From contig NZ_FUWY01000004.1 of assembly GCF_900167375.1 (NCBI RefSeq), positions 124,001 through 188,000 on the forward strand: a DNA stretch of 64,000 nucleotides, read 5' to 3'. The notes under the pieces were generated by a model. The model did no database searches and was not told the DNA's origin. It worked only from the letters and a program-made list of their open reading frames with translations. Position numbers and translations under genes: made by a program. Numbering within the stretch: the first letter of the stretch is position 1; every line of letters starts with the position of its first letter. Below, one piece after another: positions 36,648 through 60,786 of the stretch. The stretch comes from Anaerorhabdus furcosa (lineage in GTDB: Bacteria; Bacillota_I; Bacilli_A; Erysipelotrichales; Erysipelotrichaceae).

Positions 36648-36756
36648 ATTTGTCATCTCCATTTTATTTATTATAAACTTTTTGTATCAAGAATTAAAGG
36701 CATAGGCGTGCTAATTCAATCGAAATACGCTATACTTGTTAGATAGGAGGAATCAT

Positions 36757-38010
36757 ATGAAAACACTTGAAATCAGCAAAAATGTGAATTTACATCACCA
36801 TAAAACTGAAAAGTTTAATGATATTACTTTATCATTTCGTTATAAAAACTTAATTTCTAATACCAATCGTGCAGCACGTACCTTTCTTACCCAAATATTA
36901 AATGATACGTGTATTGCCTATCCAACTAAAGATGCGGTGACACGCTGTTTAGATACATTATACGGTTCAAATTATAAAGTCTTACGCGATACTTATGGCA
37001 AACTAGATGTGATTGAATTTCGTCTATCAACACTAAATGGGAATGTGGTAAATGAAGATTTACTCACAAAGCAAATTGATGTCTTGAATGAATTTATTTA
37101 TCACCCTAGAATTATGAATGGTCTTTTTGATGAAACACTTTTTAAAGAAATGAAAGAGCGATTAGTACTTATGATTCAATCATTTCATGATCAACCAGGT
37201 AATCACGCAAATGATCAAGCAAAGCGTCTTTTCAATACAACACAAGAGTTAAAAGCATTGCCTACCATTGAGGAAATAAAGAGTTGTACAAATGAAGATG
37301 TCGTTAAGGCATATCATCAACTTATTGAAGACGATGCTTTGGATATCTTTGTACTTGGAAATTATGACGAAGAGGATGTTACAGCAAGAATACAATCAAA
37401 GTTTAAATTCAATGAAAAACATTCTATTCTTGATGTCCTTGATAAAAACATTCGCGAAAATCATGATGAGATTATTGAGCAAAAAGCAATCTCACAAACA
37501 CGTGTTGTCATGATGTTTACAACAAATCAAACCATGTTGGATGAGAGTTACCCTGCTATACTTCTTGCTAATGGGTTATTTGGAAGTTTCCCAACATCCT
37601 ATCTATTCCAAGAAGTAAGAGAGAAAAGAAGTCTATGCTATAGTATTTCATCACGTATTGATAATTATGATGGATTAATTACAGTTCAAACTGCAATTGA
37701 TGGAAAGAATTATGAAGAAGTAAAAGACTTAATCCTTAAACAACTTCAACGTATCAAAGAAGGTGACTTTGATGATGAATTACTTGAGACAACAAAGAAA
37801 ATGAACATCAACATCCTACGTTCAAGTATTGATTCACAAAAATCATGTCTAACTCTTGATTATCGTGAAGTCTTGTTTAATGATTCCTTGCGTATAGAAA
37901 ATGTAATTGAAAAATTAAGGCAATGTACAAAAGAAGACTGCATCAACGCATTCAAACAAGTTGAACCAAAACTTACTTATTGTTTAATGCAGGAGGATCA
38001 TCATGAATAA
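36757..38010 (+). CDS. ymfF: M16-family peptidase-like protein, YmfF type (inactive partner)
   Basis: 417 residues from the ATG after AGGAGG (MKTLEISKNV). Two M16-like halves with the C-terminal LFQEVREKRSLCYSISS motif, but no HxxEH zinc site is visible in the N-terminal half. This is the non-catalytic subunit pattern of M16B pairs. In Bacillus ymfF-ymfH are linked to EF-P 5-aminopentanol modification by genetics and annotation, though mechanism is unclear. It overlaps ymfH by eight bases, so the two are coupled. Confidence 0.85.
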   Translation: MKTLEISKNVNLHHHKTEKFNDITLSFRYKNLISNTNRAARTFLTQILNDTCIAYPTKDAVTRCLDTLYGSNYKVLRDTYGKLDVIEFRLSTLNGNVVNEDLLTKQIDVLNEFIYHPRIMNGLFDETLFKEMKERLVLMIQSFHDQPGNHANDQAKRLFNTTQELKALPTIEEIKSCTNEDVVKAYHQLIEDDALDIFVLGNYDEEDVTARIQSKFKFNEKHSILDVLDKNIRENHDEIIEQKAISQTRVVMMFTTNQTMLDESYPAILLANGLFGSFPTSYLFQEVREKRSLCYSISSRIDNYDGLITVQTAIDGKNYEEVKDLILKQLQRIKEGDFDDELLETTKKMNINILRSSIDSQKSCLTLDYREVLFNDSLRIENVIEKLRQCTKEDCINAFKQVEPKLTYCLMQEDHHE

Positions 38011-39283
38011 ATTAAAAAACACACTCAATGAAATGATTTACACCGATACTTGCGATAATGGTTTAAAGATTGTTGTTTGGCATAAGCCAGATTTTGCAAC
38101 TACAGCCTGTTTATTCGCTACACCCTATGGAAGTTTAGACTCATCACAAAAAACAAGCGATAATCAAATTCTTAGCTTTCCAGAAGGTATTGCCCATTTC
38201 CTTGAACATAAATTGTTTGAATCTGAAGAAGGCGATGTTATGAATGAATATTCAGCACTAGGTGCAAATGTAAATGCCTTTACCTCATACAATGAAACTG
38301 TATACTATTTTGATACAAGTGATGAAGATGTTGATAAACCATTAAATCTTCTTCTAGATTTCGTACAAGATTTAAGAATAACAGAGCAATCTGTTGAAAA
38401 AGAAAAAGGAATTATTTGCCAAGAATTAAACATGTACCTTGAGATGCCAGATAGCCGATTAATCTTTGAAACCTTTAAATCAATGTACAAAAATCATCCA
38501 ATTAAAAATGATATTGGTGGTACCTGTGATTCAGTAAATAAAACAACTAAACAAGATTTAGAAACATGTTACTCTTTAAATTATCATCCTCAAAAAATGA
38601 CACTTATTGCTGTAACTCCAAAAAATCCTGAAATGATTATTCAATTGATTAAAGAAAATCAAGCAAGAAAAACATTTCCTGAATTCAAAGAAATTAAACG
38701 CTATTTTGACAAAGAGCCAAATGAAGTCTTACTGCAAGAGAAGATAATTCATATGGATGTTCAGAATCAAAAAACATGTATTGGATTTAAGTTCAGTGGT
38801 TTAAATCAAACCGACTTAAATCGTGTTAAAACAGACTGGGCATTTCGTTTTATCTTTGAAAGTCACTTTACTACAATGAATCCCGATTACCAAAAGTGGA
38901 TTACAAATCACAAAATATCGCCTTACTTTGATTATGAATCAGAGTTTTCAAAAGATTATGCACTTACCCTTTTCTTTGATGAAGGAATTAATGAGAAAGA
39001 ATTCGAACAATTTATTCTAGATGAAATCCAAACACTCAAAGAAAAAGGAATATCAAAAGAAGCTTTAATGCAATTAAAGAATCGATCACTTGGTGAAACT
39101 TTATCGGTATTCAATCAGCCAGATAACATCACAGTTCAATATTTTAGACATGAGTTAACTGGTGTTAATATGTTTGAAACAATTGATGTGATTAAGAATC
39201 TCACAGTCGAAGATTGCAATGAAATTGTTAAAGAGATGGATTTTAGTAATTATTCTATTTCAATTATCAAATCTGCTCAATAA
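38003..39283 (+). CDS. ymfH: M16-family zinc peptidase, YmfH type
   Basis: 426 residues. Intact inverted zinc motif HxxEH in GIAHFLEHKLF, with the downstream Glu in IICQELNMY. This is the catalytic partner of the preceding YmfF-like protein. M16B heterodimers act as processing peptidases; the substrate here is unknown. AGGAGG precedes the ATG. A strong terminator follows. Confidence 0.88.
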   Translation: MNKLKNTLNEMIYTDTCDNGLKIVVWHKPDFATTACLFATPYGSLDSSQKTSDNQILSFPEGIAHFLEHKLFESEEGDVMNEYSALGANVNAFTSYNETVYYFDTSDEDVDKPLNLLLDFVQDLRITEQSVEKEKGIICQELNMYLEMPDSRLIFETFKSMYKNHPIKNDIGGTCDSVNKTTKQDLETCYSLNYHPQKMTLIAVTPKNPEMIIQLIKENQARKTFPEFKEIKRYFDKEPNEVLLQEKIIHMDVQNQKTCIGFKFSGLNQTDLNRVKTDWAFRFIFESHFTTMNPDYQKWITNHKISPYFDYESEFSKDYALTLFFDEGINEKEFEQFILDEIQTLKEKGISKEALMQLKNRSLGETLSVFNQPDNITVQYFRHELTGVNMFETIDVIKNLTVEDCNEIVKEMDFSNYSISIIKSAQ

Positions 39284-39308
39284 CCACCAAATATACAAAT
39301 ACACCTAG

Positions 39309-39353
39309 GCCATATTTGCTTAAACACACCCGTTTATGCAAATATGGCTTTTT
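39309..39353 (+). terminator. intrinsic terminator after ymfH
   Basis: Eleven-pair stem GCCATATTTGC/GCAAATATGGC with a further AAAC/GTTT pairing inside, then TTTTT on the plus strand. Confidence 0.88.
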
Positions 39354-39380
39354 GCATGATTACTTTTCTCTATTTATACT
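39352..39380 (+). promoter_or_regulatory. promoter of the ssb-like gene
   Basis: TTGCAT, 17-base spacer, TATACT. The -35 begins in the T run of the ymfH terminator. Confidence 0.6.
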
Positions 39381-39402
39381 AATTTTAGAAATGGAGGGTT
39401 TT

Positions 39403-39732
39403 ATGTTAAATCAATGTGTATTGGTAGGAAAAGTTAAAGAGATGCCAGTTATTAAAAAAACAGCAAATGGTATCGCAAATGCAACCTTGTTACTTGATGT
39501 AGAGCGAGGATTTAGAAATGCTAACGGTGAAGTTGACATTGATACATTCAGTATTACACTCTGGCGTGGTGTTGCTGAGGAATGCATGTCAATTTGTACT
39601 CCTGGATCATTGATTGGAGTTCGTGGTAGACTTCAAGCAAATGTTCATAGCGCTAACAACGATGTCACTTATTACAATGCAGAAGTTATTGCAGAGAAAG
39701 TATCATTCTTATCAAGAGACTCAAAAGATTAA
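39403..39732 (+). CDS. small single-stranded DNA-binding protein
   Basis: 109 residues from the ATG after GGAGGG (MLNQCVLVGKV). OB-fold SSB core: CVLVGKVKEMPVI, ANATLLLDVERGFRN, DTFSITLWRGVAEECM and GSLIGVRGRLQ. The protein ends in SFLSRDSKD and lacks both the Gly/Gln-rich linker and the acidic DDDIPF-type tip that recruits repair proteins. Thus it looks like an accessory SSB (SsbB-like) rather than the replicative one, which is expected elsewhere with rpsF-rpsR. Confidence 0.85.
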   Translation: MLNQCVLVGKVKEMPVIKKTANGIANATLLLDVERGFRNANGEVDIDTFSITLWRGVAEECMSICTPGSLIGVRGRLQANVHSANNDVTYYNAEVIAEKVSFLSRDSKD

Positions 39733-40658: not shown

Positions 40659-41219
40659 TCATTTTTCAATAATACGTGCTAAAGATTTTTTAATCATCTT
40701 TAAGTCGCTTGAATCCTTCTTAATCCAAGATGAAATCATAGAACCATGAATCAGTGCAAATACAGCTTGTGCTTTTTCATAAGACTCTTCTTTTGAATAA
40801 CCAAAGTCGAAAAATTTTTGGGCATATAATGCTTGCCATTCATCATAAATATGTTTGCATGTTTGGTTGACATCTTCATCAAGATAGACAGATTCAATGG
40901 ATATCATTGTTAATAACAAGGAACTGAAGTAAGATCTTTTTTCAACGTTTGCAGCCAAGAAGTCAGCCATATTTTCAAATGCTTTGAGGGGATTTGTCTC
41001 ATTCTTAAAATGAGAGTTTTCTATGCCAGTTTTCATTTGAATGTAACTTGCATCTAAAACCTCTTTAATCAGTTGGATTTTACCATCTGGAAAATAATAA
41101 TAAAAACTTCCTTTTGGAATCTCACAAACTTTCAGCAGTTCTGTAAGTCCAACTCCATAGTAGCCTCTTTCTGAAAATAAATAAGCCGCATGCTGTATGA
41201 TCATTTCTTTTTTATTCAT
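40659..41219 (-). CDS. TetR-family transcriptional regulator
   Basis: 186 residues. N-terminal helix-turn-helix: AAYLFSERGYYGVGLTELLKVCEIPKGSFYYYFPDGKIQLI. The C-terminal ligand domain resembles the TetR_C_11/LmrA-YxaF group. The ATG lies only seven bases from a perfect TATAAT, so its transcript may be leaderless. It is downstream of the flavin-reductase lipoprotein gene in the same direction, and a 17-base palindrome of TetR type covers that gene's start site. It is therefore the likely repressor of that gene. Confidence 0.9.
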   Translation of the reverse strand: MNKKEMIIQHAAYLFSERGYYGVGLTELLKVCEIPKGSFYYYFPDGKIQLIKEVLDASYIQMKTGIENSHFKNETNPLKAFENMADFLAANVEKRSYFSSLLLTMISIESVYLDEDVNQTCKHIYDEWQALYAQKFFDFGYSKEESYEKAQAVFALIHGSMISSWIKKDSSDLKMIKKSLARIIEK

Positions 41220-41250
41220 AATTCCATTATACAAGAAAATAAAAAATTAC

Positions 41251-41293: not shown

Positions 41294-43057
41294 TTATTCT
41301 TCAATTACACTTAAACCAGCATTATGACCACTTGTAACAGCCCATCCAAATAATGATCCACCATAGTAGATATCTCCTTCAAGACCACCAACAACTTCTC
41401 CTGCTGCATATAAACCTTGAATTGGTTCATTCTTTGTATTGACTACTTGCATGTTGTCATTGATTTTTAAACCACCCAATGTTGCATAATAACGTAACCA
41501 CATTTGAATTGCATAATAAGGCCCTTCTGTTGTGATTTCACCCTTTAATTCACGACCATATTCATCTTTACCTTGTTTTACACTTGCATCAAATTTCTCG
41601 GCAGATGCATTAAGTGATCCCCCTGGTAAAGAAAGACTTGTTTCTAAATCAGCAAGTGTTTTTCCTTCAATCATGACTGGATTTGAAACTCCTGCATTTG
41701 CTAACCATTCTTTTACATCATCTTCGCTATAAATTTTACTAGCCATCATTCCTTCATTGAATGCATTGAATGCTTCTTCATTTAGAATTAAGTAGTTTGC
41801 TTTGTTTACTTTCATTGCTTGAATTAAATCATATGCATTGCCTTGTTCGTTAGTAAAACGTTCACCATTTTCATTTACTAAGAATGCTCCTCCTACTGCG
41901 TAAGCTTTACCAACACCAGGATTTGTATATTGTCCAAGACCGCTTGGCATAACAATACTATTTGGTTGAACATTGATGAATTCCATATTGATTGTAGCTG
42001 CATCAACTGCCTCTGCCATCTTTAATCCATCACCATCTGCACCAGCTGCACCTGCATATACATATTCATTTTGAATTTCTTCTGGAATCATTTCATCATT
42101 GTTTCCAAAACCACCTGTTGCTAAGATAACTGCATCTGCATGTATTGTATATTCTTTACCCTTTGCAGTTGCCTTAATACCTTTTACAACGTTATCTTCT
42201 ACAATAAGTTCAGTTCCCTTTGTTCCTAAGTAAAGAGTACCTCCACCTTCAGTAAAAGAGTTTGTCAGGCTAGTTACAACACCTGCTCCTCTTCCTTCAG
42301 CAGAATATGTTCTTCCTCCACCCTCAGTACGTACATAAGGAACATGAGCACCCTCTTCACTTACGATCCAATCAAATGCCGCACCTACAGTATTGACAAA
42401 GATATCAAGAGTAGCTTCATCATTGTAGTTGTGACCATTTTTTAGCATATCTTCCTTTAATGATTCAGGAGAATCTTTATAACCGTCCTCTTGTTGCCAT
42501 TTACTACCAGTTGCAGTTGTACCTGCTCCTGCCATTGCAGATGCACCACCCGCAATGTTCATTTTTTCAACTAAAATAACTTTCCTTCCTTGTTGTTGTG
42601 CTGTTAAAGCAGCAGATAATCCTGCAACCCCACCACCTACGACAACAACATCAGTTGTTTCTTCTACTTGTTCAATACTCTCATTTCCACTAGCATTTGA
42701 AAACTTCGATAAGTCTGCTCCCGCTTGTGTCATCGCATCCTTTAATGCTACCTTAAATCCTTCTGATGTAATTGTTGCACCTGTTACTACATCAACTTCA
42801 ACGGTTTGATCCTTTACAGCTTGCTCTACTAAACTAGGTAAAGCCGCTTTCCCAATACCCTCTGTTTCATTTTCATCTGTTACTTCAATTGACTTAATAC
42901 TGCCACTATCAACAGTTACCGCAATTGTAATATCACCATGATAACCTGCTGCTGAGGCAGTATAAGTACCTGCCTTCATTGAATCATTGTTATTTGTTGG
43001 TGTATTACACCCAGCAATCAACAACAATGAAAGTAATAAAGAAATAATTTTTTTCAT
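41294..43057 (-). CDS. FMN-binding lipoprotein flavin reductase (fumarate/urocanate reductase-like)
   Basis: 587 residues. Signal peptide ending in lipobox LIAGC (Cys17), so it is anchored outside the cell. FMN-binding domain follows (about 28-113) with the ApbE flavinylation motif D89-VVTGAT95-IT. The remainder is a FAD flavoprotein of the fumarate reductase family: VVVVGGGVAGLSAALTAQQ, ASAMAGAGTTA, GRGAGVVTSL, ILATGGFGNND, and the end GGLEGDIYYGGSLFGWAVTSG. Such secreted flavin reductases let gut Bacillota respire fumarate, urocanate, cinnamates or similar acceptors. The substrate cannot be read off. No apbE is in the window. A TetR site overlaps its promoter. Confidence 0.9.
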   Translation of the reverse strand: MKKIISLLLSLLLIAGCNTPTNNNDSMKAGTYTASAAGYHGDITIAVTVDSGSIKSIEVTDENETEGIGKAALPSLVEQAVKDQTVEVDVVTGATITSEGFKVALKDAMTQAGADLSKFSNASGNESIEQVEETTDVVVVGGGVAGLSAALTAQQQGRKVILVEKMNIAGGASAMAGAGTTATGSKWQQEDGYKDSPESLKEDMLKNGHNYNDEATLDIFVNTVGAAFDWIVSEEGAHVPYVRTEGGGRTYSAEGRGAGVVTSLTNSFTEGGGTLYLGTKGTELIVEDNVVKGIKATAKGKEYTIHADAVILATGGFGNNDEMIPEEIQNEYVYAGAAGADGDGLKMAEAVDAATINMEFINVQPNSIVMPSGLGQYTNPGVGKAYAVGGAFLVNENGERFTNEQGNAYDLIQAMKVNKANYLILNEEAFNAFNEGMMASKIYSEDDVKEWLANAGVSNPVMIEGKTLADLETSLSLPGGSLNASAEKFDASVKQGKDEYGRELKGEITTEGPYYAIQMWLRYYATLGGLKINDNMQVVNTKNEPIQGLYAAGEVVGGLEGDIYYGGSLFGWAVTSGHNAGLSVIEE

Positions 43058-43179: not shown

Positions 43180-44139
43180 TTATCGTTTACCAGAATCGTA
43201 GATTTCTCCCGCCGCCTTAGGTCCCACTGTTTTACCACTAAATACAATTAGGGCAATGATTGTGAATACATAAGGAATACATGCGAAGAATTCCGACGGT
43301 AGTTTATTAAGTATTGGAATCATACTTGCATAAACACCTAGTGCTGATGAGAAACCAAAGAAAATGGCTGCACCAAGAACTCCAAATGGATTCCATTTAC
43401 CAAAGATTAATGCTGCAATTGAAATGAACCCTACTCCATGAATTGAAGCGATTGTGTATTGAACACCTGAAGTAAGAACCATGACAGCACCTGCTAATCC
43501 ACCAAGACAACCTGATAGGATGACACCTGCATATCTCATCTTATATACGTTGATACCCATTGAAGCACTTGCTTGTGGATTTTCACCACATGAGCGAAGT
43601 CGTAATCCAAAAGGTGTTTTGAATACAACGAAGTAAACAATGAATACAAGGATTACCGCTAAGAAAATTGTTGGATAAATATTTTTAAACATCATATCAC
43701 CAAGAATAGGAATATCGGATAGTATTGGAACTGCTTTTACTTTTGAAATTCCTTTTGCAAATGATTGTGTTCTTTGTTGATTAAAGATAATTTGGCACAA
43801 GTAAATTGTAATACCACCTGCAAGTAAGTTAAGCGCTGTACCTGCAATTGTATGATCCGCTTTGAAGTTGATTGTTGAAACAGCAAGCAGAATTGAATAA
43901 AGAGCTCCTGCTACTAAACCTGCTACAAGCCCAATCCAACCCGCATAAGGACCTAGTGCTGGATTTGTTTCAAGAAGAACACAAACAGTTGCGCCTGCAA
44001 AACCTCCAACCATCATAATTCCTTCAAGAGCGATATTTACGATACCTGAACGTTCTGAGAATAGACCACCTAGAGCACAAATGATAATTGGTGCTGCAAT
44101 CATGAGTACTGATGGAAACATAGAAATAATTAAACTCAT
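43180..44139 (-). CDS. nupQ: nucleoside ABC transporter permease (NupQ/YufQ-like)
   Basis: 319 residues, about eight to nine membrane helices, BPD_transp_2 family. Conserved GLFSERSGIVNIALEGIMMVGGFAGA and TPFGLRLRSCGENPQASASMGINVYKMRY contain the EAA-like coupling loop. Second permease of a BmpA-type importer for nucleosides. It overlaps the preceding permease gene by four bases and ends at a strong terminator. Confidence 0.9.
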   Translation of the reverse strand: MSLIISMFPSVLMIAAPIIICALGGLFSERSGIVNIALEGIMMVGGFAGATVCVLLETNPALGPYAGWIGLVAGLVAGALYSILLAVSTINFKADHTIAGTALNLLAGGITIYLCQIIFNQQRTQSFAKGISKVKAVPILSDIPILGDMMFKNIYPTIFLAVILVFIVYFVVFKTPFGLRLRSCGENPQASASMGINVYKMRYAGVILSGCLGGLAGAVMVLTSGVQYTIASIHGVGFISIAALIFGKWNPFGVLGAAIFFGFSSALGVYASMIPILNKLPSEFFACIPYVFTIIALIVFSGKTVGPKAAGEIYDSGKR

Positions 44140-45248
44140 TTCACATCACCTCCTTGTGGTTGTAACTCTTGTTTTTTCTTTTTCTTACCTGATGTAAATT
44201 TAAGCAGATAATATTGAATTGCATATTGTAGTGCAACGAAGAATACGATTGAACTTGAGATAATTTCTCCAATTTCTTTTGGAACTCCGAATGTTTGAAG
44301 TAGTGGTTGCGTTACTTTTAATAATCCAAATAACATTCCCGCAAACGTAACACCCAACGCTGTACATCCACCAACTAAAGCAACTGCAATTCCATCAAAT
44401 CCATAGTTATCCATCGCAACCATAACACGTCCATAACCGAAAGTACCTTGTACTACGATAGCCCCTGCAATTCCTGCAAGGAAACCAGAAATCATGATTG
44501 ATAAAATGATACTCTTATTAACTTTAATTCCAGCATAACGTGCACCTTCTTTATTAAATCCTGTTGCACGTAATGAATAACCAAATGATGTTTTTTCAAT
44601 AATAAACCAAAACAGAACAACTGCAATAATCACGATAATAAATCCCCAGTGGAAACGAGAATTATTTGTGATTTGTTTAAACAGTTCACTTCCAAGCATT
44701 GCATTCTCTGGAATATTCACTGTTCTTTGTGCACTTGATCCAGGTAATGCACGCAAGAAATAGTTTGCACCATATAAAGCTGTATAGTTTAACATAATCC
44801 CTGTTACTACTTCTGAAATATTAAATTTCGATTTAAGTAATCCTGGAATAAAAGCCCAAAGAGCTCCAGCAATTCCACCCACTATGATACAAACTACAAC
44901 AGCAATAAAATTAGGCATAGGCACTAAAATTGCAACCATACAACTTACTAAACTACCCATAATAACTTGACCCTCACACCCGATATTAAACATACCTGTA
45001 CGATAAGCAAAGCTAATTGATAATCCAGTTAAGATAATTGGCATTGTACTTACTAGGAATTCTCCTGGATATCGAAGATTAACTGCAGATCCTGCTTTTA
45101 ACATATCATATCCTGTTAACCCTTTTACAAGTCCTGCAAATAGAGTTGCTATATCTTTACCTGATAAAAGTAAGATAATCATTCCCACTAAAATTCCTAA
45201 ACCAACTGCTATTAATGGGATAATGATTTTTTCGTTTTTCTTACTCAT
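44136..45248 (-). CDS. nupP: nucleoside ABC transporter permease (NupP/YufP-like)
   Basis: About 370 residues, start chosen at the ATG nine bases past GGGGG (MSKKNEKIIIPL). Same family as its partner: FAYRTGMFNIGCEGQVIMGSL and TSFGYSLRATGFNKEGARYAGI. It is larger, with a Lys-rich C-terminus. Forms the membrane channel with NupQ. Overlaps the ATPase gene by eight bases. Confidence 0.9.
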   Translation of the reverse strand: MSKKNEKIIIPLIAVGLGILVGMIILLLSGKDIATLFAGLVKGLTGYDMLKAGSAVNLRYPGEFLVSTMPIILTGLSISFAYRTGMFNIGCEGQVIMGSLVSCMVAILVPMPNFIAVVVCIIVGGIAGALWAFIPGLLKSKFNISEVVTGIMLNYTALYGANYFLRALPGSSAQRTVNIPENAMLGSELFKQITNNSRFHWGFIIVIIAVVLFWFIIEKTSFGYSLRATGFNKEGARYAGIKVNKSIILSIMISGFLAGIAGAIVVQGTFGYGRVMVAMDNYGFDGIAVALVGGCTALGVTFAGMLFGLLKVTQPLLQTFGVPKEIGEIISSSIVFFVALQYAIQYYLLKFTSGKKKKKQELQPQGGDVK

Positions 45249-46776
45249 GATCACTTACCCCCTCAATTTTAGATCCAGCCATCATTAGACCAAGTTGTTT
45301 TTCATCCGTTTCTTTGTCATTAACAATACCAGTAATACCACCATTGTACATAACTGCAATACGATCACTTAAGCCTAAGATTTCATCTAATTCAAATGAA
45401 ACTAGTAATACTGCTTTACCAGCATTTCTTTCATTTACAATACGACTATGAATGTATTCAATTGCACCAACATCAAGACCACGAGTTGGCTGAACAACAA
45501 TTAATAAATCTGGACTACGGTCAATTTCACGAGCAATAATTGCTTTTTGTTGGTTTCCACCTGACATTGAACGCGTAATAGTTTCTTTACCTTGTCCGCT
45601 ACGTACATCAAATTCATTAATTAATTTATCTGCATATTGATCAATCTTTGTAAAATTAAGAATTCCATTTTTACTAAATTGTTCAGTATTGTATCCATGA
45701 ATAATAAAATTTTCTTTTAATTTGAAATCAAGAATCAAACCGTGTTTATGACGGTCTTCTGGAACATGTCCAATTCCCGAATCAATACGTTTCTTGATTG
45801 AAAATCCTGATACATCTTTACCATTAAGAATTAAAGTACCTGACGTAATTGGGCACAACCCTGTAATTGCTTCTACTAATTCTTTTTGACCATTACCATC
45901 AATACCTGCAATACCTACAATCTCACCAGATCGAACAGATAAAGAGAAATTTTCTACAGCACGTGTACCACGTGTATTTTTAACACATAAATCTTTAATC
46001 TCTAAAACTTTATTACCAAGTTGAATTTCTGGTTTATGAATTTTAAAATCAACCTCACGACCAACCATCAACTCAGCCATTTCTTTTTCAGATGTTTTGC
46101 TTACTTCAACTTCAGCAATAAATTTACCTCTTCGAAGTACTGTACACTTATCTGCAACTGCTTTAATTTCTTTTAACTTATGCGTAATTAGAATAATTGT
46201 TTTACCCTCTGCCGCTAAGCTTTTCATAATTGCGATTAACTCATCAATTTCTTGTGGTGTTAAAACCGCAGTTGGTTCATCAAAAATTAATATATCTGCA
46301 TTACGATACAACATCTTTAATATTTCTACACGTTGTTGCATCCCTACTGTAATATCTTCTATCTTTTGTGATGGATCTATATCAAATCCATATTTCTTCG
46401 ATAGTTCATCAATACGTTTCGCTGTTGTTTTTGTATCAACAGTTCCAAACTTAGTTTTAGGTTCACTACCTAATATAATATTTTCAGTAACAGTAAAATT
46501 ATGTACCAACTTAAAGTGTTGGTGAACCATCCCTATACCCAAATCATTAGCAACATTGGGATTAGTTATTTTTACTTCTTTCCCATTAACTTTAATGATT
46601 CCTTCAGTTGGCTCATACAAACCAAATAAAATCGACATTAGTGTAGATTTACCTGCACCATTTTCACCCAACAAAGCATGTATTGTACCACGTTCAACTT
46701 TTAATGTAACATTATCATTTGCACGTATGCCTGGGAAGTCTTTGGTTATGTTAAGCATTTCAATAGCATAATCCAT
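45241..46776 (-). CDS. nupO: nucleoside ABC transporter ATPase (two domains)
   Basis: 511 residues with two fused ATPase domains, as in RbsA/NupO/YufO. The first has Walker A GENGAGKST, signature region DITVGMQQRVEI and Walker B DILIFDEPT. The second has the altered Walker A GIDGNGQKE and signature SGGNQQKAI with Walker B DLLIVVQPTRGLD, the usual asymmetric pattern. Powers nucleoside uptake. It has its own extended -10 promoter and a moderate leader after the bmpA terminator. Confidence 0.93.
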   Translation of the reverse strand: MDYAIEMLNITKDFPGIRANDNVTLKVERGTIHALLGENGAGKSTLMSILFGLYEPTEGIIKVNGKEVKITNPNVANDLGIGMVHQHFKLVHNFTVTENIILGSEPKTKFGTVDTKTTAKRIDELSKKYGFDIDPSQKIEDITVGMQQRVEILKMLYRNADILIFDEPTAVLTPQEIDELIAIMKSLAAEGKTIILITHKLKEIKAVADKCTVLRRGKFIAEVEVSKTSEKEMAELMVGREVDFKIHKPEIQLGNKVLEIKDLCVKNTRGTRAVENFSLSVRSGEIVGIAGIDGNGQKELVEAITGLCPITSGTLILNGKDVSGFSIKKRIDSGIGHVPEDRHKHGLILDFKLKENFIIHGYNTEQFSKNGILNFTKIDQYADKLINEFDVRSGQGKETITRSMSGGNQQKAIIAREIDRSPDLLIVVQPTRGLDVGAIEYIHSRIVNERNAGKAVLLVSFELDEILGLSDRIAVMYNGGITGIVNDKETDEKQLGLMMAGSKIEGVSDHE

Positions 46777-46861: not shown

Positions 46862-46890
46862 CAAAAAAAAGGTACTCTTTCGAGTACCTC
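46862..46890 (-). terminator. terminator between bmpA and nupO
   Basis: Stem GGTACTC/GAGTACC with a GAAA loop and TTTTTTTT on the minus strand. Confidence 0.88.
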
Positions 46891-46902
46891 GTAGCACATA
46901 AA

Positions 46903-47994
46903 CTATTTGTTAGAAGCTCCGTTTGCAATTACAGGAACAGCACTAACTTCGATTTCTCCGCCTTTAATCTTTGTAGCATATTCTTCGATAGCTTTAATTG
47001 TTTCATCACTTAAATTACGTCCTGTTGAAAGTTCAGCTCCAACACCTTCGTTTTCAAGATTGAATACAACTGGCCCACCTTGGAATTTGCCTTCAAGGAT
47101 TGCTTGTGCAGCTGTTTTTGTAGAAATGTCTACACGTTTAATCATTGATGTTAAGATAATTGATTTTCCATCAACTTCTCCATCTTTGTATTGGTCTTTA
47201 TCAACACCGATAGCCCAAACACCACCGCGTTCTTTAGCTTCTTTGATAACTCCATTACCAGCAGCTCCAGCAGCTTGGTAAATTACTGTAGCACCAGCAT
47301 CGTATTGTTTAACAGCTAATGCTTGACCTTTTGAATCATCACTGAATGAATCAGCATAGTCAACATAAATTGTTGCATCTGGGTTAGCAGCAAGAACACC
47401 TTGTTCATAACCAGCTTGGAACGCACCAATTAAGTCACCTTCCATACCACCAACGAATCCAACTTTGTTAGAACCGTTAGCTTTAGCTTCAAGACCTGCA
47501 GCAATACCTACAAGGTATGAACCTTGTTCAGCATTATATACAGCACTCATAACATTTGCATTTTCTGAAACTGAATCGATAAATAAGAAGTTTTTGTCTG
47601 GATAGTTAGCAGAAACTGTATCGATAGCTTCTTGGAATAAATATCCTACTGCGATAACTAAATCAAATCCTTCGTCAGCGAAAGTTGATAAGTTAGGAAT
47701 ATAGTCTGCATCTGATGTAGATTGTAAGTAATCAATACAAACACCTTTTTCAGTAGAGAAACCATTTTCTTCAGCATAAGCAACTAAACCTTCCCAAGCT
47801 GATTGATTGAATGATTTGTCATCAACTCCACCAGTATCAGTAACTAAACCAATTTTAACTGGACAAGTTGTTGCAGTTTTTCCTCCGTCTCCTTCAGGTG
47901 TTGGTGTAGCAGTTGCAGCAGGTTTACTTGAACATCCTGCAATCATCGCACCAGCAAGAAGAAGAACTAAAGCGCTTTTAAAGACTTTTTTCAT
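46903..47994 (-). CDS. bmpA: BmpA-family nucleoside-binding lipoprotein
   Basis: 363 residues. Signal peptide with lipobox MIAGC (Cys21), then a low-complexity ATATPTPEGDGGKTA linker. The periplasmic-binding fold (PF02608) follows: KIGLVTDTGGVDDKSFNQSAWEGL, NFLFIDS, KVGFVGGMEGDLIGAFQAGYEQG and VIYQAAGAAGNGVIKEA. This is the substrate receptor of the nucleoside importer encoded just downstream; BmpA/PnrA proteins bind purine nucleosides. The strong terminator after it probably keeps receptor transcripts more abundant than the rest. Confidence 0.93.
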   Translation of the reverse strand: MKKVFKSALVLLLAGAMIAGCSSKPAATATPTPEGDGGKTATTCPVKIGLVTDTGGVDDKSFNQSAWEGLVAYAEENGFSTEKGVCIDYLQSTSDADYIPNLSTFADEGFDLVIAVGYLFQEAIDTVSANYPDKNFLFIDSVSENANVMSAVYNAEQGSYLVGIAAGLEAKANGSNKVGFVGGMEGDLIGAFQAGYEQGVLAANPDATIYVDYADSFSDDSKGQALAVKQYDAGATVIYQAAGAAGNGVIKEAKERGGVWAIGVDKDQYKDGEVDGKSIILTSMIKRVDISTKTAAQAILEGKFQGGPVVFNLENEGVGAELSTGRNLSDETIKAIEEYATKIKGGEIEVSAVPVIANGASNK

Positions 47995-48032
47995 TTCTTT
48001 TCCTCCGTTTATGGCTTTTTTTGCCTATAAAA

Positions 48033-48061
48033 ATATTAACCTCTATAGTATGAATTGTCAA
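48033..48061 (-). promoter_or_regulatory. bmpA promoter
   Basis: Minus strand perfect TTGACA, 17-base spacer, TAATAT. The short leader has a GGC/GCC hairpin only; no purine riboswitch was seen. Confidence 0.65.
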
Positions 48062-48186
48062 ATGAACCCATTATAAAATCGTGAAAACTTAGTGCGATTT
48101 TTACATGAAAATTTACATTATTTTCTCCTTATTTTCAATAGAGAGAATACATCTTTTTGAGTATCACGTATCATCATTTTAGAAAT

Positions 48187-48211
48187 TAAAAAAGACAACC
48201 GAAGTTGTCTA
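48187..48211 (-). terminator. intrinsic terminator after the YjjI-family gene
   Basis: Stem AGACAAC/GTTGTCT with a TTCG tetraloop and a following TTTTT run on the minus strand; overlaps the stop codon. Confidence 0.9.
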
Positions 48212-49708
48212 TTTATTAATTCTACGATCAAGGGCAGCTGAAGTATCACGAGCACCTTTACCAAATACTGAAACATTGTTTAGTGATTGTTGACCTTTAT
48301 CAAGTTTTTCAAGTTCACTACGTTTAACAAGATATCCTGTAACACGTACAACATCATTGTTTGCAAGGTAACCTGAGAAGTAGCGCATACCATTGTTTAA
48401 TGCACCTTTGATTACGTCAAGTAAAGCTTCAGGTGTCTTAGCCCAAGTTTCTTCAAACTTGAAGATATCACCAACTCCTGTAGGGAAATACTTATGGAAC
48501 ATACATGCATGTTTAATTTGTTCAATCATTTCAGGTTCGCTTCCAACTGGAATACGTACTCCTGGAGAGTTTTCTCTACCATCAGTATCAATTCCAACTT
48601 GAGCATGCAAACGATAGTGATGATCAAATGCTGCTGCATATTTTGATTTGTGTTTAGCAACTAAGCCTTCAAGCTTGTCCATAATTTTTTGTCCAAGTTT
48701 ATCAGCTTCAGGATTATTACCATAACCGTTTGCTGGATCTTTTATTTTTAGTAAATGGTTAACACATTCTGCAAGTCCAACCATACCCACCATACCTGTA
48801 AACTTATCTAACTCTACAAATCCTTCAGTTACTAAGAAATTAACTTTGAAGAAATTACTTGTTTCAACAATGAAGCCAATACGATCATCCATCATTTTTA
48901 AGATAAGTTTTGTATAGAAAGGTAATGTTTCTTTTATAAATTGTTCAGGTGATTTTGCCTTCTTAGCCATTTCATACATTCTTAAACGAGGTAATGTGAA
49001 TCCACCTCCACCAATTTTAAGTCCGTTATAGCATGAAGCAATTGCGAAATCTTTGCCCCAATCTTTTGCATACATTTTATAATTTGCAAATGATGGTTTT
49101 GCTGTTTTCATCATGCACTTAGCACATAAGATACCAAATTCATCACTTGTAAGTTTTGGATCATATTTTAATGTTAAGTTAGGAATTGCAAGTTGCATTT
49201 CTTCTGTTAACTCTAAAATGATTCTTCCTGTTGTTGTATCTTTTGGACCAATATCAGCATGAACAAATGAATCTGTCAATGTACGATCAATATGAGTTAA
49301 GAATAGTTTCAAGCATTTCTTTGCCTCACTTCGATCCATTTTCTTTACAAATGGTTCAAGTAAAACATCCAAATCACCAAGATAAACTGGGAATGTAGTA
49401 ATTGATGGAACATGTTTATACATAATTAATAAACTATTACATGCTTCCCATAAATCTTTAGGTTTACTTAATCCTAAAAATTCACTTCCTTTTTTCATTA
49501 AAATTGAGTAATCAGGACAAATATATCTTGGTCTAAATGGTGCATTACCTTCTCCAAGATCACAAATAATCGCATCTTTTTTAGCCTTCTTTAATTCAGG
49601 GCTAATTACTAATGTATGATCTGTATTTTCTCCCAATTTTGCTAATTGAACTAGTTGTTGATTATAGGTTAATGTTTTATCAGTAATAATTTTTAGAGCT
49701 TCACCCAT
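48209..49708 (-). CDS. yjjI: YjjI-family glycyl radical enzyme
   Basis: 499 residues. The C-terminus has the glycyl radical motif in DVVRVTGYLVKRSE (Gly458), and a likely active-site cysteine in FAIASCYNGLKIGGGGF. The overall sequence matches the YjjI group (DUF3029) rather than PFL or class III ribonucleotide reductase, whose zinc ribbon it lacks. Reaction is unknown. The activating radical-SAM partner YjjW is not adjacent. In E. coli yjjI-yjjW stand beside the deoCABD nucleoside-catabolism genes; here yjjI stands directly upstream of a nucleoside importer. Confidence 0.85.
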   Translation of the reverse strand: MGEALKIITDKTLTYNQQLVQLAKLGENTDHTLVISPELKKAKKDAIICDLGEGNAPFRPRYICPDYSILMKKGSEFLGLSKPKDLWEACNSLLIMYKHVPSITTFPVYLGDLDVLLEPFVKKMDRSEAKKCLKLFLTHIDRTLTDSFVHADIGPKDTTTGRIILELTEEMQLAIPNLTLKYDPKLTSDEFGILCAKCMMKTAKPSFANYKMYAKDWGKDFAIASCYNGLKIGGGGFTLPRLRMYEMAKKAKSPEQFIKETLPFYTKLILKMMDDRIGFIVETSNFFKVNFLVTEGFVELDKFTGMVGMVGLAECVNHLLKIKDPANGYGNNPEADKLGQKIMDKLEGLVAKHKSKYAAAFDHHYRLHAQVGIDTDGRENSPGVRIPVGSEPEMIEQIKHACMFHKYFPTGVGDIFKFEETWAKTPEALLDVIKGALNNGMRYFSGYLANNDVVRVTGYLVKRSELEKLDKGQQSLNNVSVFGKGARDTSAALDRRINK

Positions 49709-49711
49709 ACG

Positions 49712-51955
49712 TTAATCCTCCTTTTTCATGTAAACGTCTCGAGGTTTAGAACCTTGTGCAGGTCCAATAATTCCACGTTCTTCCAATAAGTCAATCATAC
49801 GTGCAGCACGATTATATCCAATACCAAATCGGCGTTGCAACAATGACGTTGATGCTTTTTGAACATCAATGACATATTCCTTTACTTCATCATACATCGG
49901 ATCATCTTCAATTTTCAATACAGAAGTTGATTCATTGTTGTCAACTCCCTCCAATCGAATAAAGGCATCTTCATAGTGGGGAATGTCTTGACTTGAACAA
50001 TACTCAGAAATTTTATGAACTTCATCGTCAGTTACATAGACCCCTTGCAAACGAATTGCGCTTGGTTCTCCAATAGGAAGATACAACATATCACCATTAC
50101 CAAGCAAGCGTTCTGCTCCAATGTGATCTAAAATTGTTCTTGAGTCAATTCCACTTGAAACACTAAAGGCAATGCGTGATGGAATATTTGCTTTAATAAT
50201 TCCAGTAATAACATCTGTACTTGGTCTTTGTGTTGCAACAATCAAATGTATTCCAGCAGCACGAGCAAGTTGTGTAATTCGTTGAATGCTTAACTCAACT
50301 TCTTTACCTGCAATTGCCATTAAATCTGCTAACTCATCTATAATAACAACAACATAAGGCATTGCTTGAAGTTTTTCATCAGGGAAATTTTTAATCTTCT
50401 CATTGTAACTATCAATATTTCTCACTTGTGTTTTAGAGAAGATTTCATATCTTTCTTCCATCATCAACACAACAACTTTAAGTGCTCTTGCAGCTTCAGC
50501 TGCATCACTAATTACTGGGCCAATTAAGTGTGGTATTTTTTGATAAGGTGTAAATTCTACTTTCTTTGGATCAATTAATAATAACTTGACTTCATCTGGT
50601 GTAGTTCTTAATAAGAATGAAGTGATGATTGTATTCATACAAACTGACTTTCCAGAACCAGTTGCACCAGCAATCAGTAAATGTGGCATTTTATGTAAGT
50701 TACAATATACTGGTTTTCCCATCAAATCTTTTCCTAATACAAATAATGTTTTCACATCTTTTAATTCATTTGGAACAGACTTAATTAATTCAATCATTCT
50801 TACTGCTGTAGGTTCCACATTTGGTATTTCAATTCCTACCGCATTGCGTCCTGGAATTGGTGCTTCAATACGAATATCTCGTGCAGCTAATTCCATTTTG
50901 ATATTATCAGATACACTATTAATTTTACTTACTTTTACATTTGATTCTGGTTTCACTTCGAATTTTGTAACAGCAGGTCCAATATGAGTTGCGATTAGTT
51001 CAGCATCAATATCGAAATTTCCTAATATTTCAATCAAGCGTTGTCCTTTTTCAGTAGCAGCCACTTGATTCAAATTACTTCTTTGTTTTGGTCCTATCGG
51101 TTGAAGTAAAGAAAGTGGTGGTAATCGATAAGATTTCCCACTTCTCATTTGTTTTTCTACTTGAGTTGGTGTTATCTCATAATTGGTTGTCGTTGTTACC
51201 TTCTTTTCTTGAGGTTTATTTTCAACCACATTTCCCTTTTTCTCTACATCCACAAAAATTGATTTCTTTTGTTTTGGATCTAATTTACCAATCATTTTTG
51301 GCTGAGGAAATATTTCTTCATCCTCTTCTTCAATTTTTTCTTCTACCTCGACATATTCATATTCTTCTTCATCTTCTCGCCATTGATTCTTAAGTTCAAA
51401 GAAATTTTTGATTGAAGCTATCGCTTCTTTAAAACTATCCAAAGAAAGAATTAAAATTAGTGCCAAGATAACTAAGGCAATGGATAAAATCCAAGTTCCT
51501 TCTTTCGCAATTAAGACAGATGTCATTGAATAGAGGAATGCACCAAAGAAACCACCATAAGCAGGTATGGTAGCTGTTTCTTTAAAATAATTCGGTGTAT
51601 TTTCAACAAATGTTTTCAAGATATCAAAACCTTGAATAGTTGGATCAACTAGAGTAGCAGACCAAAGCAAAATCGCAAAGAGAATACACAATGCTGCAAT
51701 GATCGTCTTTGCGTTTACCACACCTTTTTTCTTATGCGTTAAAATAATCGTAGCTAAAACAATTCCAATTATACAAGCGGCATAATAGAAATCACCAAAC
51801 AGATAACGTACAACATTATTTAAGAATAATCCGACAATTCCAAATTTAAATAATGCAATACATAAAACCACAATAAGTGCTGTACTTATAATGTACATAT
51901 ACAACTCTTGGTCTTTAGGCTCTTGTTTTTTCTTTTTCTTTTTTGCCTTTGCCAT
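49712..51955 (-). CDS. ftsK: DNA translocase FtsK/SpoIIIE
   Basis: 747 residues. A Lys-rich start, four N-terminal membrane helices (about 20-170), an acidic linker, then the FtsK motor with PHLLIAGATGSGKSVCMN (Walker A) and VVIIDELADLMA (Walker B). The C-terminal gamma winged helix (ASTSLLQRRFGIGYNRAARMIDLLEERGIIGPAQGSKPRDV) reads chromosome polarity. Pumps DNA through the closing septum. It lies three bases ahead of yjjI, an unusual pairing. Confidence 0.96.
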   Translation of the reverse strand: MAKAKKKKKKQEPKDQELYMYIISTALIVVLCIALFKFGIVGLFLNNVVRYLFGDFYYAACIIGIVLATIILTHKKKGVVNAKTIIAALCILFAILLWSATLVDPTIQGFDILKTFVENTPNYFKETATIPAYGGFFGAFLYSMTSVLIAKEGTWILSIALVILALILILSLDSFKEAIASIKNFFELKNQWREDEEEYEYVEVEEKIEEEDEEIFPQPKMIGKLDPKQKKSIFVDVEKKGNVVENKPQEKKVTTTTNYEITPTQVEKQMRSGKSYRLPPLSLLQPIGPKQRSNLNQVAATEKGQRLIEILGNFDIDAELIATHIGPAVTKFEVKPESNVKVSKINSVSDNIKMELAARDIRIEAPIPGRNAVGIEIPNVEPTAVRMIELIKSVPNELKDVKTLFVLGKDLMGKPVYCNLHKMPHLLIAGATGSGKSVCMNTIITSFLLRTTPDEVKLLLIDPKKVEFTPYQKIPHLIGPVISDAAEAARALKVVVLMMEERYEIFSKTQVRNIDSYNEKIKNFPDEKLQAMPYVVVIIDELADLMAIAGKEVELSIQRITQLARAAGIHLIVATQRPSTDVITGIIKANIPSRIAFSVSSGIDSRTILDHIGAERLLGNGDMLYLPIGEPSAIRLQGVYVTDDEVHKISEYCSSQDIPHYEDAFIRLEGVDNNESTSVLKIEDDPMYDEVKEYVIDVQKASTSLLQRRFGIGYNRAARMIDLLEERGIIGPAQGSKPRDVYMKKED

Positions 51956-57990: not shown

Positions 57991-58013
57991 AAAATGAGAC
58001 TATTTTAGTCCCA
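57991..58013 (-). terminator. intrinsic terminator after the hybrid kinase gene
   Basis: Stem TGGGACTA/TAGTCTCA (one G-U pair) with an AAA loop and TTTTC on the minus strand; overlaps the stop codon. Confidence 0.65.
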
Positions 58014-60786
58014 TTTTTGTCTTATCATACTTTGTAATTAATTGATACAATGTCTCATATAATCGCTCTACTTCGATTGGTTTATTTAAATATCCTGACA
58101 TCATTTCATCCAAATCATGTCTTCTTTCATCATCAAATATATCTGCAGAAATTGCGATGATTGGCAAAATTGTTGCATCTTGACGCACAATCGAACGAAT
58201 TTCACGCGTCGCCTCGATTCCATCCATTACTGGCATTTTGATATCAATAATAATGGCATCATAAGTAAATACCTCTGATTTTGCGAACATTTGTACACCT
58301 TCAAGTCCATTTGTAGCACAATCAACCTCATAATTACCCTTTTCCAATATTGCTTTAGCTACTTTTATATTTAATTCATTGTCTTCTACCAGTAAAACTT
58401 TCTTTTTATCACTGAAGTGATAATTTGTTGATTCTATAGCTTCTTGGTTTGCGTGTTCCTTATCAACAACATCGAAATCAAAAATCATCGTGAATGTAGT
58501 TCCCTTAGTTTTTGCACTTTCTACTTCAATTGTACCTTGGTTTAAATCTACCAAGCTTTTAACGATACTCATTCCTAACCCTGTTCCTGTAATATCGCTT
58601 TGATTGCTTTTCTCTTGGCAAAATGGATTAAAGAGTGATGGAAGAAATTCTTCTGACATCCCAATTCCTTCATCTTTTATCTTTAATTCAATTTTCATTC
58701 TATTTTGATTTTCTTCAATTTTCTTTAACGACACATTGATATTGCCCTTTGGATAAGAAAATTTAATGGCATTGGTTAATATATTCATAATTATTTGTTG
58801 GAAACGAAGGGAATCGACCAAAAGATAAACACTTGAAGACAAGTTTGTAAAAAAGTGAAGTTGAATTTCTTTTTCCATTAGTTGTGTATTTAAAATCTTT
58901 TCACATGTACGATATACATTCACAAGACTTGTAGGTGTTGGATGAAGTGACATCATGTTACTTTCAATTTTCGACATATCCAAAATATCATTTACTAATG
59001 CAACTAAGTATTTACTCGAACGGTTGATATCTTCTAGACGCTCTTCCATCTTTTCTGGGTTCTTAATTTCAGTAATCGCTAAATCAGATAAGTTTACAAT
59101 GGCATTCATTGGTGTTCTTATTTCATGTGACATTTGAGATAAGAAATTACTCTTTGTTTTGTTTGCTAATTCAACAGAACGGATTTCTATTTTTTGATTC
59201 GCTTCTTTTCTTTTTACCCTACTTACAAAATAAACTAACACTAAACAAAGAACAGATAGTACTCCAATAATAATTAGTGGCAAGCGATAAGGATAAAAAT
59301 AATCATACAAGGTTATATTGCGGTTTACATGATTACTGTGTGCTAAAATAAAGAGTTTTACATCTTCCTCAGTTACACTATCAATCGCTTTATTAACGAC
59401 TGTTATAAGTTGACTCTTATCATCTTTTAACCCCACCAAATTTGTCGCAATGTTTTTTGTATAGTATGTTTTGACTTCTAAATCATTAAAGTATGGATTC
59501 TTAAATTCAAAGTTATATACATAGGAATTAATAAGTGCCATATCCACATCTTCTCTCATCACTGCAGATAAGCATTCATAGGGTGTCTCATACATTGTAG
59601 ATGTAGCTTTTGGAAAGTCAGATGAAAATAAATCCAATATTTCATTTTCATCAAAATAAATTGCAATATCTTTGACATGCAATGGAAAATTTTCAATTGT
59701 CGCTTTGCTTACAACAACATAATCAGAAGTAAATATAGGTAGACTCCCCATTAAGTGCTCATCACGATAAGATGTATCCAAAGACACAAGCAAATCCAAT
59801 TGATGTTGATTAATATTTTCCTCTGGTAGTAATTTTTTATCCGCTTTTACATAGTTAATTTCTAATCCAGACACCCGACTTACTTTATTTAGAATATCAA
59901 CAAGAATTCCATGTGGATTATTATCAACCCACTCACTCAGTGGTGAATTATTGTCATATAAACCTATCGTGATAGATTTCTTTTCTTGAATATATAAACT
60001 ATCTTCCTTTGTAAAAAGAGGATTGTATATTTTCTCATTTTCAAAATACTTTATATACAATTCGTCCAAATCTTGTTTTTTTTCTGAGTAAGCTTGGCGA
60101 AGTGCAAAATCCATTTCATCTAGTTTTGGATTGTCTTTGTATGTCATTGCATAATAAGGGCTAGATCCATAGTTTAATACAACGCGATAATCTTTATGAT
60201 CAAAAATATTAGAAGATGCAATAAAATCAATTTCATTATTATCCAATGCTTGCTCCAAATCTTCAATTTGGTCATAATAGATTACTTCTGTTTCCAAATC
60301 CAATCGCTCTGTATACATTTCAAAAAATGTATCATAGGCAGTAAAACTTAAAATACCAATTTTTTTATGATTGATTTCTTCATAATCACCATAATAAATT
60401 GCTTTTTCTGGTAAAGTATAAAGATACATTTTTTCCAAACCAGTTTGAAATTTTGTAAATTCATATATACCTTCTCGCTCTTCTACATTTGAACCAGTAA
60501 AAATGAAGTCAATTTGATGTTGATTAAGTGCTTCCATAGCATCTGCCCATGTCATATAAACAAACTCGACATCACTTACTAAGTATTCATCCAAAATATC
60601 AATCATTTCAGGAATATAACCACTCACTATGCCATTTGTATTTTGATAAAGCTCATCTACAGATTCAACACAAGCAATAATTATTGCCTCATTTTTTTCA
60701 TTAGCATTTGCATATACAAAAAAAGGTGTAATTAAACAAATTACACTAAATAAACAAAATACACCTTTTATCAATTTCTTAAACAT
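58000..60786 (-). CDS. BvgS/EvgS-like hybrid sensor histidine kinase
   Basis: 928 residues. Signal peptide (1-27), two tandem extracellular solute-binding (SBP_bac_3) domains (about 33-250 and 270-490), one membrane helix (about 502-524), a HisKA domain with His554 (QMSHEIRTPMN), an HATPase domain with N-box NILTNAIKFSY and GTGLGMSIVKSL, and a receiver with phospho-acceptor Asp848 (IIIDIKMPVMDG) and Lys902. It senses an amino-acid-like or related ligand. No Hpt module and no partner response regulator are adjacent, so output is unknown. It is followed by a terminator and lies two bases after the DedA gene. Confidence 0.92.
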   Translation of the reverse strand: MFKKLIKGVFCLFSVICLITPFFVYANANEKNEAIIIACVESVDELYQNTNGIVSGYIPEMIDILDEYLVSDVEFVYMTWADAMEALNQHQIDFIFTGSNVEEREGIYEFTKFQTGLEKMYLYTLPEKAIYYGDYEEINHKKIGILSFTAYDTFFEMYTERLDLETEVIYYDQIEDLEQALDNNEIDFIASSNIFDHKDYRVVLNYGSSPYYAMTYKDNPKLDEMDFALRQAYSEKKQDLDELYIKYFENEKIYNPLFTKEDSLYIQEKKSITIGLYDNNSPLSEWVDNNPHGILVDILNKVSRVSGLEINYVKADKKLLPEENINQHQLDLLVSLDTSYRDEHLMGSLPIFTSDYVVVSKATIENFPLHVKDIAIYFDENEILDLFSSDFPKATSTMYETPYECLSAVMREDVDMALINSYVYNFEFKNPYFNDLEVKTYYTKNIATNLVGLKDDKSQLITVVNKAIDSVTEEDVKLFILAHSNHVNRNITLYDYFYPYRLPLIIIGVLSVLCLVLVYFVSRVKRKEANQKIEIRSVELANKTKSNFLSQMSHEIRTPMNAIVNLSDLAITEIKNPEKMEERLEDINRSSKYLVALVNDILDMSKIESNMMSLHPTPTSLVNVYRTCEKILNTQLMEKEIQLHFFTNLSSSVYLLVDSLRFQQIIMNILTNAIKFSYPKGNINVSLKKIEENQNRMKIELKIKDEGIGMSEEFLPSLFNPFCQEKSNQSDITGTGLGMSIVKSLVDLNQGTIEVESAKTKGTTFTMIFDFDVVDKEHANQEAIESTNYHFSDKKKVLLVEDNELNIKVAKAILEKGNYEVDCATNGLEGVQMFAKSEVFTYDAIIIDIKMPVMDGIEATREIRSIVRQDATILPIIAISADIFDDERRHDLDEMMSGYLNKPIEVERLYETLYQLITKYDKTKMGLK

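Follow-up and report, generated by a model that had tools for sequence, protein, structure and literature searches.

Recurrent nucleoside-gene neighbours and a ribonucleotide reductase-like fold suggest a role for YjjI glycyl radical enzymes in anaerobic nucleoside or pentose salvage

The glycyl radical enzyme (GRE) pyruvate formate-lyase (PFL) has two adjacent cysteines in its active site, and the diol dehydratases and choline lyase carry a glutamate two residues after the thiyl cysteine (C-x-E). In the class III ribonucleotide reductases (NrdD), residues C290, G580, C79, and N311 of the T4 enzyme have their counterparts in C416, G711, C171, and N435 of the P. copri enzyme, which uses formate and in which C171 has the role of reductant (PMC11226230). 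The YjjI family of GREs is itself already known. The E. coli yjjI gene is a direct target of FNR and is induced anaerobically (PMC3688515), and in the tables published for Yersinia intermedia yjjI rises without oxygen (PMC3792023). One study noted an NRDD-like domain prediction for YjjI and proposed a function in nitrogen assimilation, based on co-expression clusters with narG genes in E. coli and Salmonella (PMC3228777). However, shared control by FNR can explain this co-expression (PMC3688515), and no recurrent nitrogen-assimilation neighbour was recognised among the loci mapped here, whose neighbours were annotated in part; we consider this function very improbable. Literature searches, with most subscription journals outside their scope, found no paper giving a reaction of YjjI or a link to nucleosides, and the nucleoside or pentose role proposed here for the family is new and testable.

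The window analyzed in this study was a stretch of 64,000 nucleotides from Anaerorhabdus furcosa. On its minus strand, the genes rny, ymdB, miaB, an rnjA-like gene, ftsK, yjjI, bmpA, nupO, nupP, and nupQ followed one another in this order, the first four being named by sequence resemblance. The yjjI gene (48209..49708, minus strand) encoded a protein of 499 residues, with the thiyl cysteine at Cys226 and the radical glycine at Gly458, which matched TIGR04040 with 682.8 bits (cut-off 498.3) over residues 4-497, that is, over its full length, and PF11230 with 699.4 bits. It was intact and was the only copy in the source genome. As a gene, this yjjI is unremarkable within its known family; the interest lies in the combined inference on the YjjI family. 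The ftsK/spoIIIE gene (49712..51955, minus strand), with PF01580 and the FtsK alpha and gamma domains, ended 3 bp upstream of yjjI. Downstream, bmpA (46903..47994, minus strand; PF02608, 243 bits) encoded a BMP/PnrA-like nucleoside-type substrate-binding lipoprotein, and bmpA and yjjI together made up the span 46903-49708 on which the earlier note had focused. Its description of yjjI as directly upstream of bmpA-nupOPQ was borne out, with bmpA, nupO, nupP, and nupQ following on the same strand.

The closest solved relative of the window BmpA was TmpC of T. pallidum (2fqw, E 1.4e-80), which we take to be the purine nucleoside receptor PnrA. The gene nupO (45241..46776, minus strand) encoded a tandem ABC ATPase with two PF00005 stretches, and nupP (44136..45254, minus strand) and nupQ (43180..44139, minus strand) encoded permeases of PF02653. 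With a PnrA-like binding protein, an ATPase, and two permeases encoded side by side in the usual gene order, the set was an ordinary nucleoside ABC importer of the BmpA-NupOPQ type with no notable difference. By analogy, it would bind and transport nucleosides, although related BMP proteins can bind other ligands. Beyond nupQ lay a gene for a lipoprotein with FMN-binding and FAD-binding fumarate-reductase-like domains of the flavocytochrome c type (41294-43057, minus strand), which was adjoined by a TetR regulator gene (40659-41234). Two further features of the window were a 6S RNA (RF00013; 13647-13807, minus strand), which scored 52.1 bits, above the gathering score, and a large putative sensor kinase (58000-60786, minus strand) with two solute-binding-like domains and a receiver domain recognised by eye.

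The gap between yjjI and bmpA was 214 bp, and an intrinsic terminator stood directly behind the yjjI stop codon (48193..48210, minus strand). It consisted of a 7-bp stem, a UUCG loop, and a U tract (AGACAAC-UUCG-GUUGUCU-U6, 48210..48193), and the 61-nt stretch containing it had a minimum free energy of -12.3 kcal/mol (z -2.6). A promoter-like site before bmpA (TTGACA-17-TAATAT; 48033..48061, minus strand) was a weak candidate, a consensus match of a kind not enriched over shuffles in the region, and a terminator-like site was located between bmpA and nupO (46869..46890, minus strand). Because the intrinsic terminator abuts yjjI, these signals suggest that yjjI more likely shares the transcript of ftsK than that of bmpA, and that bmpA starts its own. 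Among the 22 loci in which bmpA lies downstream of yjjI on its strand, a search immediately ahead of bmpA found no terminator-like site in 17, and the window was among the five exceptions. The terminator that parts the two genes favors a rival explanation in which their synteny has no meaning: yjjI, with or without the activase gene yjjW, would have been inserted into, or lost from, an existing ftsK-bmpA block, and its function would be unrelated to nucleosides.

YjjI, YjjW, BmpA, and FtsK were searched for in 145 genomes of the host family, and their coordinates were compared. YjjI was above the cut-off in 51 copies from 45 genomes; 15 of these copies lay by ftsK, and bmpA was also present in 10 of the 15. 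A close ftsK-bmpA pair without yjjI there was found in 25 genomes, 18 of which had no yjjI at all, as the synteny explanation would have it. Therefore, the ftsK-bmpA-nupOPQ block is older than, and independent of, yjjI, the adjacency of yjjI and bmpA in the window is partly inherited synteny, and this adjacency, the first of the two links offered in the earlier note, is weak when taken alone. Two genes of the M16-peptidase family and ssb (36736-39732, plus strand in the window) stood directly behind nupQ in many relatives and therefore belong to the same old block; the pair (36736-39283) and the gene after it (39316-39732) had been considered as nucleoside genes by their size and were rejected on being identified as M16 peptidases and ssb.

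The copies of yjjI away from ftsK argue against synteny without meaning. Among these 36 copies, 13, spread over nine genera, had bmpA within 10 kb, whereas about 1.2% was expected from the density of bmpA (a binomial figure of about 1e-16, which ignores shared descent). One of the 13 (G144) was at a contig end and is possibly ftsK-linked in truth, and another (G005:C23) rests on a distant BmpA 7.7 kb off. In G102, one bmpA stood by ftsK and a second, separate bmpA stood by yjjI. A neighbourhood survey of this kind had been suggested in the earlier note, and it returned the enrichment of nucleoside genes that the note's proposal implied. As a marker of genomes with yjjI, deoC gave no separation, since DeoC was found in 135 of the 145 genomes.

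Across lineages, 28 of 61 non-redundant loci had a nucleoside gene no more than 6 kb from yjjI (8 of 10 by ftsK and 20 of 51 elsewhere), the counts being uncorrected for shared descent. The linked loci away from ftsK came from the host's own family (13 of 24), other Bacilli (2 of 3), Clostridia (4 of 21), and Gammaproteobacteria (1 of 2), with none in the single locus from Fusobacteriota. On a tree of 84 YjjI proteins, the nucleoside-linked state changed at least 15 times among the loci not beside ftsK, a count in which gain and loss are indistinguishable and to which contig ends add some false negatives. In both Bacilli and Clostridia, the pair yjjI-yjjW recurs within clusters of bmp-nup, deo, and cdd genes, and more than one gene order was seen. 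The most complete order was deoD-deoB-yjjI-yjjW-bmpA-nupOPQ-cdd-deoA (L033, and in part L034), and in another family of Bacilli (L068 and L069) yjjI-yjjW was inside the bmp-nup operon itself, as bmpA-yjjI-yjjW-nupOPQ. In a locus from Clostridia (L086), the end of nupQ overlapped yjjI by 8 bp, and in its relatives (L087 and L088) bmpA-nupOPQ was followed by two housekeeping genes and then by yjjI-yjjW; these wecA- and nth-like genes were rejected as a nucleoside link. In L044, yjjI-yjjW was followed by a hydrolase gene, a gene of the ADP-ribosylglycohydrolase family, and bmpA-nupOPQ, and in L061 a deoC-type gene preceded yjjI-yjjW.

Many lineages had no nucleoside neighbour of yjjI, which again favors synteny without meaning. 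None was found within 6 kb in 17 of the 21 non-redundant loci from Clostridia, and a search for the genes of the E. coli locus and for the bmp-nup genes of the window found neither deo nor bmp-nup genes near the yjjI-yjjW pairs of Proteus, Aeromonas, Vibrio, and Chloroflexota. In Proteus, the E. coli arrangement was preserved on the serB-ytjB side, without deo genes there. The second link in the earlier note, from yjjI to the deo genes of E. coli, thus found no counterpart in Proteus, Aeromonas, and Vibrio. Against this, many loci without ftsK close by had bmpA or deo genes near yjjI, and the insertion of yjjI-yjjW within the bmp-nup operon of L068 and L069 speaks in the same direction; we judge synteny without meaning to be unlikely, though a serious contender. 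The nucleoside or pentose role put forward in the earlier note therefore finds its support in the recurrent link across these loci and in the changes on the tree, its own two links having been weak ones.

Several other observations were made on these loci. In some relatives, a patatin-family gene separated bmpA from nupO, whether yjjI was present or not (L040:11342-12247, L042, L053, and L109); it was rejected as an extra link through YjjU, because its identity to E. coli YjjU was only about 27% and it also occurred without yjjI (L109). The loci L051, L054, L055, and L056, to which L021 was closest on the tree, formed a clade in which most YjjI were second copies and nucleoside neighbours were lacking, and in L054 and L056 yjjW was also absent beside yjjI; this clade may represent a subfamily that works with a different partner. 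The YjjI proteins of two Clostridia MAGs (L010 and L012) were placed within the host-family clade on the tree, which suggests horizontal transfer of these yjjI genes. A pair of ABC exporter genes recurred upstream of yjjI in two separate clades (L025, L029, L037, L092-L095, and L097), which may be due to chance, such exporters being common. Two short records from a phage collection (OR850962.1 and OR845353.1), labelled as phage, carried pieces of yjjI and resembled bacterial host DNA.

In about 75 of 85 loci, yjjI had the activase gene yjjW as its neighbour; in the window it did not. A search of the source genome found an intact yjjW on another contig (G000:C4:12362-13186; 366.5 bits, cut-off 250.2), where it stood behind rplM-rpsI, away from yjjI. 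The earlier note, which had proposed looking for YjjW in this genome, was right that the gene is missing from the neighbourhood, but activation need not come from outside the cognate activase family, which the genome encodes. Because the best relatives of this YjjW and of the window YjjI partly coincide (L025, L029, and L037), it is plausible that yjjW moved within the host lineage.

An alignment of 61 YjjI sequences was used to analyze residue conservation. C226 was the single invariant cysteine, located in the motif S-C-Y-N (225-228), and the radical glycine loop was RVTGY at 455-459, in which T457 and G458 were invariant (G458 in 61 of 61). Further residues invariant in all 61 sequences included R61, Y62, N177, N228, T238, R241, E295, H368, Q370, D376, and R385. 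The window YjjI, which was 38% identical to YjjI of E. coli (b4380), had all of the invariant residues. An AlphaFold model of YjjI built from 58 sequences had a pLDDT of 93.9 and a pTM of 0.92. The best 20 VIA-align matches to this model were all NrdD structures (Z 31.2 to 26.1), with 1h7b at the top (Z 31.2, 428 aligned residues, rmsd 2.3), and the first other GRE had a Z of 25.7; since matches within 1 of each other count as tied, the lead of NrdD rests on its upper rows. Foldseek alone placed NrdD and other GREs mixed near the top. Profile-profile comparison of YjjI with 22 NrdD sequences gave a probability of 97.7 and an E of 2.5e-12 over 434 columns.

In the model, the 10-stranded barrel of the catalytic domain is predicted to be common to YjjI and NrdD, and in the profile-profile alignment residues C290 and G580 of T4 NrdD aligned with C226 and G458 of YjjI. 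The reductant C79 on the first strand of T4 NrdD, in contrast, aligned with Tyr62, which was invariant in 61 of 61. C49 was rejected as a substitute reductant cysteine because 6 of the 61 sequences carry D, N, S, or H at that position. The active-site N311 of T4 NrdD fell at position 236 of YjjI, occupied by G, S, or A; the register around 232-238 was uncertain, and no asparagine was found at 232-238 in nearly all of the 61 rows. In 59 of the 61 YjjI, the 30 N-terminal aligned residues contained no NxN, the flap motif of NrdD, and in place of the zinc cysteines before the radical glycine, the C-terminal 100 residues had at most one cysteine in 56 of 61 and four in none. The ATP-cone of NrdD was also absent from YjjI, whose 499 residues begin at the barrel. 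PFL and the other PF02901 GREs belong to the same superfamily (Z up to 25.7), but YjjI had a single cysteine, with S225-C226 invariant, instead of the adjacent cysteine pair of PFL, and Asn228 (61 of 61) at the position of the glutamate of the diol dehydratases and choline lyase.

Judged from the features tested, YjjI, though NrdD-like in build, is neither a ribonucleotide reductase nor PFL nor a typical dehydratase; it resembles an anaerobic ribonucleotide reductase stripped of the parts for nucleotide reduction. NrdD as the closest fold and the nucleoside gene context would both suit an NrdD-related ribonucleotide or ribonucleoside reductase that makes deoxynucleotides or deoxynucleosides from salvaged material. 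Nevertheless, YjjI lacks the reductant cysteine, the active-site asparagine, the NxN flap, and the zinc cysteines, it has no second invariant cysteine, and the source genome already encodes a full NrdD, so that we rate such a reductase as highly unlikely.

The fold alone reveals no substrate of YjjI. Taken together with the gene neighbourhoods and with the anaerobic control of E. coli yjjI by FNR, it leads us to favor, by a modest degree of belief, YjjI as a GRE of anaerobic (deoxy)nucleoside or pentose salvage, with a putative reaction. In such a reaction, YjjW, encoded elsewhere in the source genome, would make the radical on Gly458, the radical would pass to Cys226 to give a thiyl radical, and Cys226 would abstract a hydrogen from a pentose, either that of an imported nucleoside or a pentose (phosphate) derived from it. 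Because the reductant cysteine and the active-site asparagine of NrdD are replaced in YjjI, the reaction would probably end in a redox-neutral step that frees the product (elimination, isomerisation, or cleavage), without reduction to a deoxynucleotide. For the bond broken, our leading guess is elimination from the ribose ring, on the basis of ribonucleotide reductases with mutated reductant cysteines. More speculatively, and with rather low probability, YjjI may be an anaerobic nucleoside (or pentose phosphate) lyase, a third route of breaking nucleosides besides phosphorolysis and hydrolysis. The thiyl radical at Cys226 would then take a ribose hydrogen as in NrdD, and without a reductant in the pocket the intermediate would lose water, the base, or both; if true, YjjI would be an arrested ribonucleotide reductase turned into an anaerobic lyase.

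Between them, the genomic linkage, the NrdD-like fold, and the loss of the residues that serve reduction in NrdD leave a smaller field to search, that of redox-neutral radical chemistry with nucleosides or pentoses as substrates. If the proposed role in nucleoside or pentose salvage is right, YjjI would bring a new reaction to anaerobic nucleoside salvage and would show a ribonucleotide reductase-like fold turned to breakdown.
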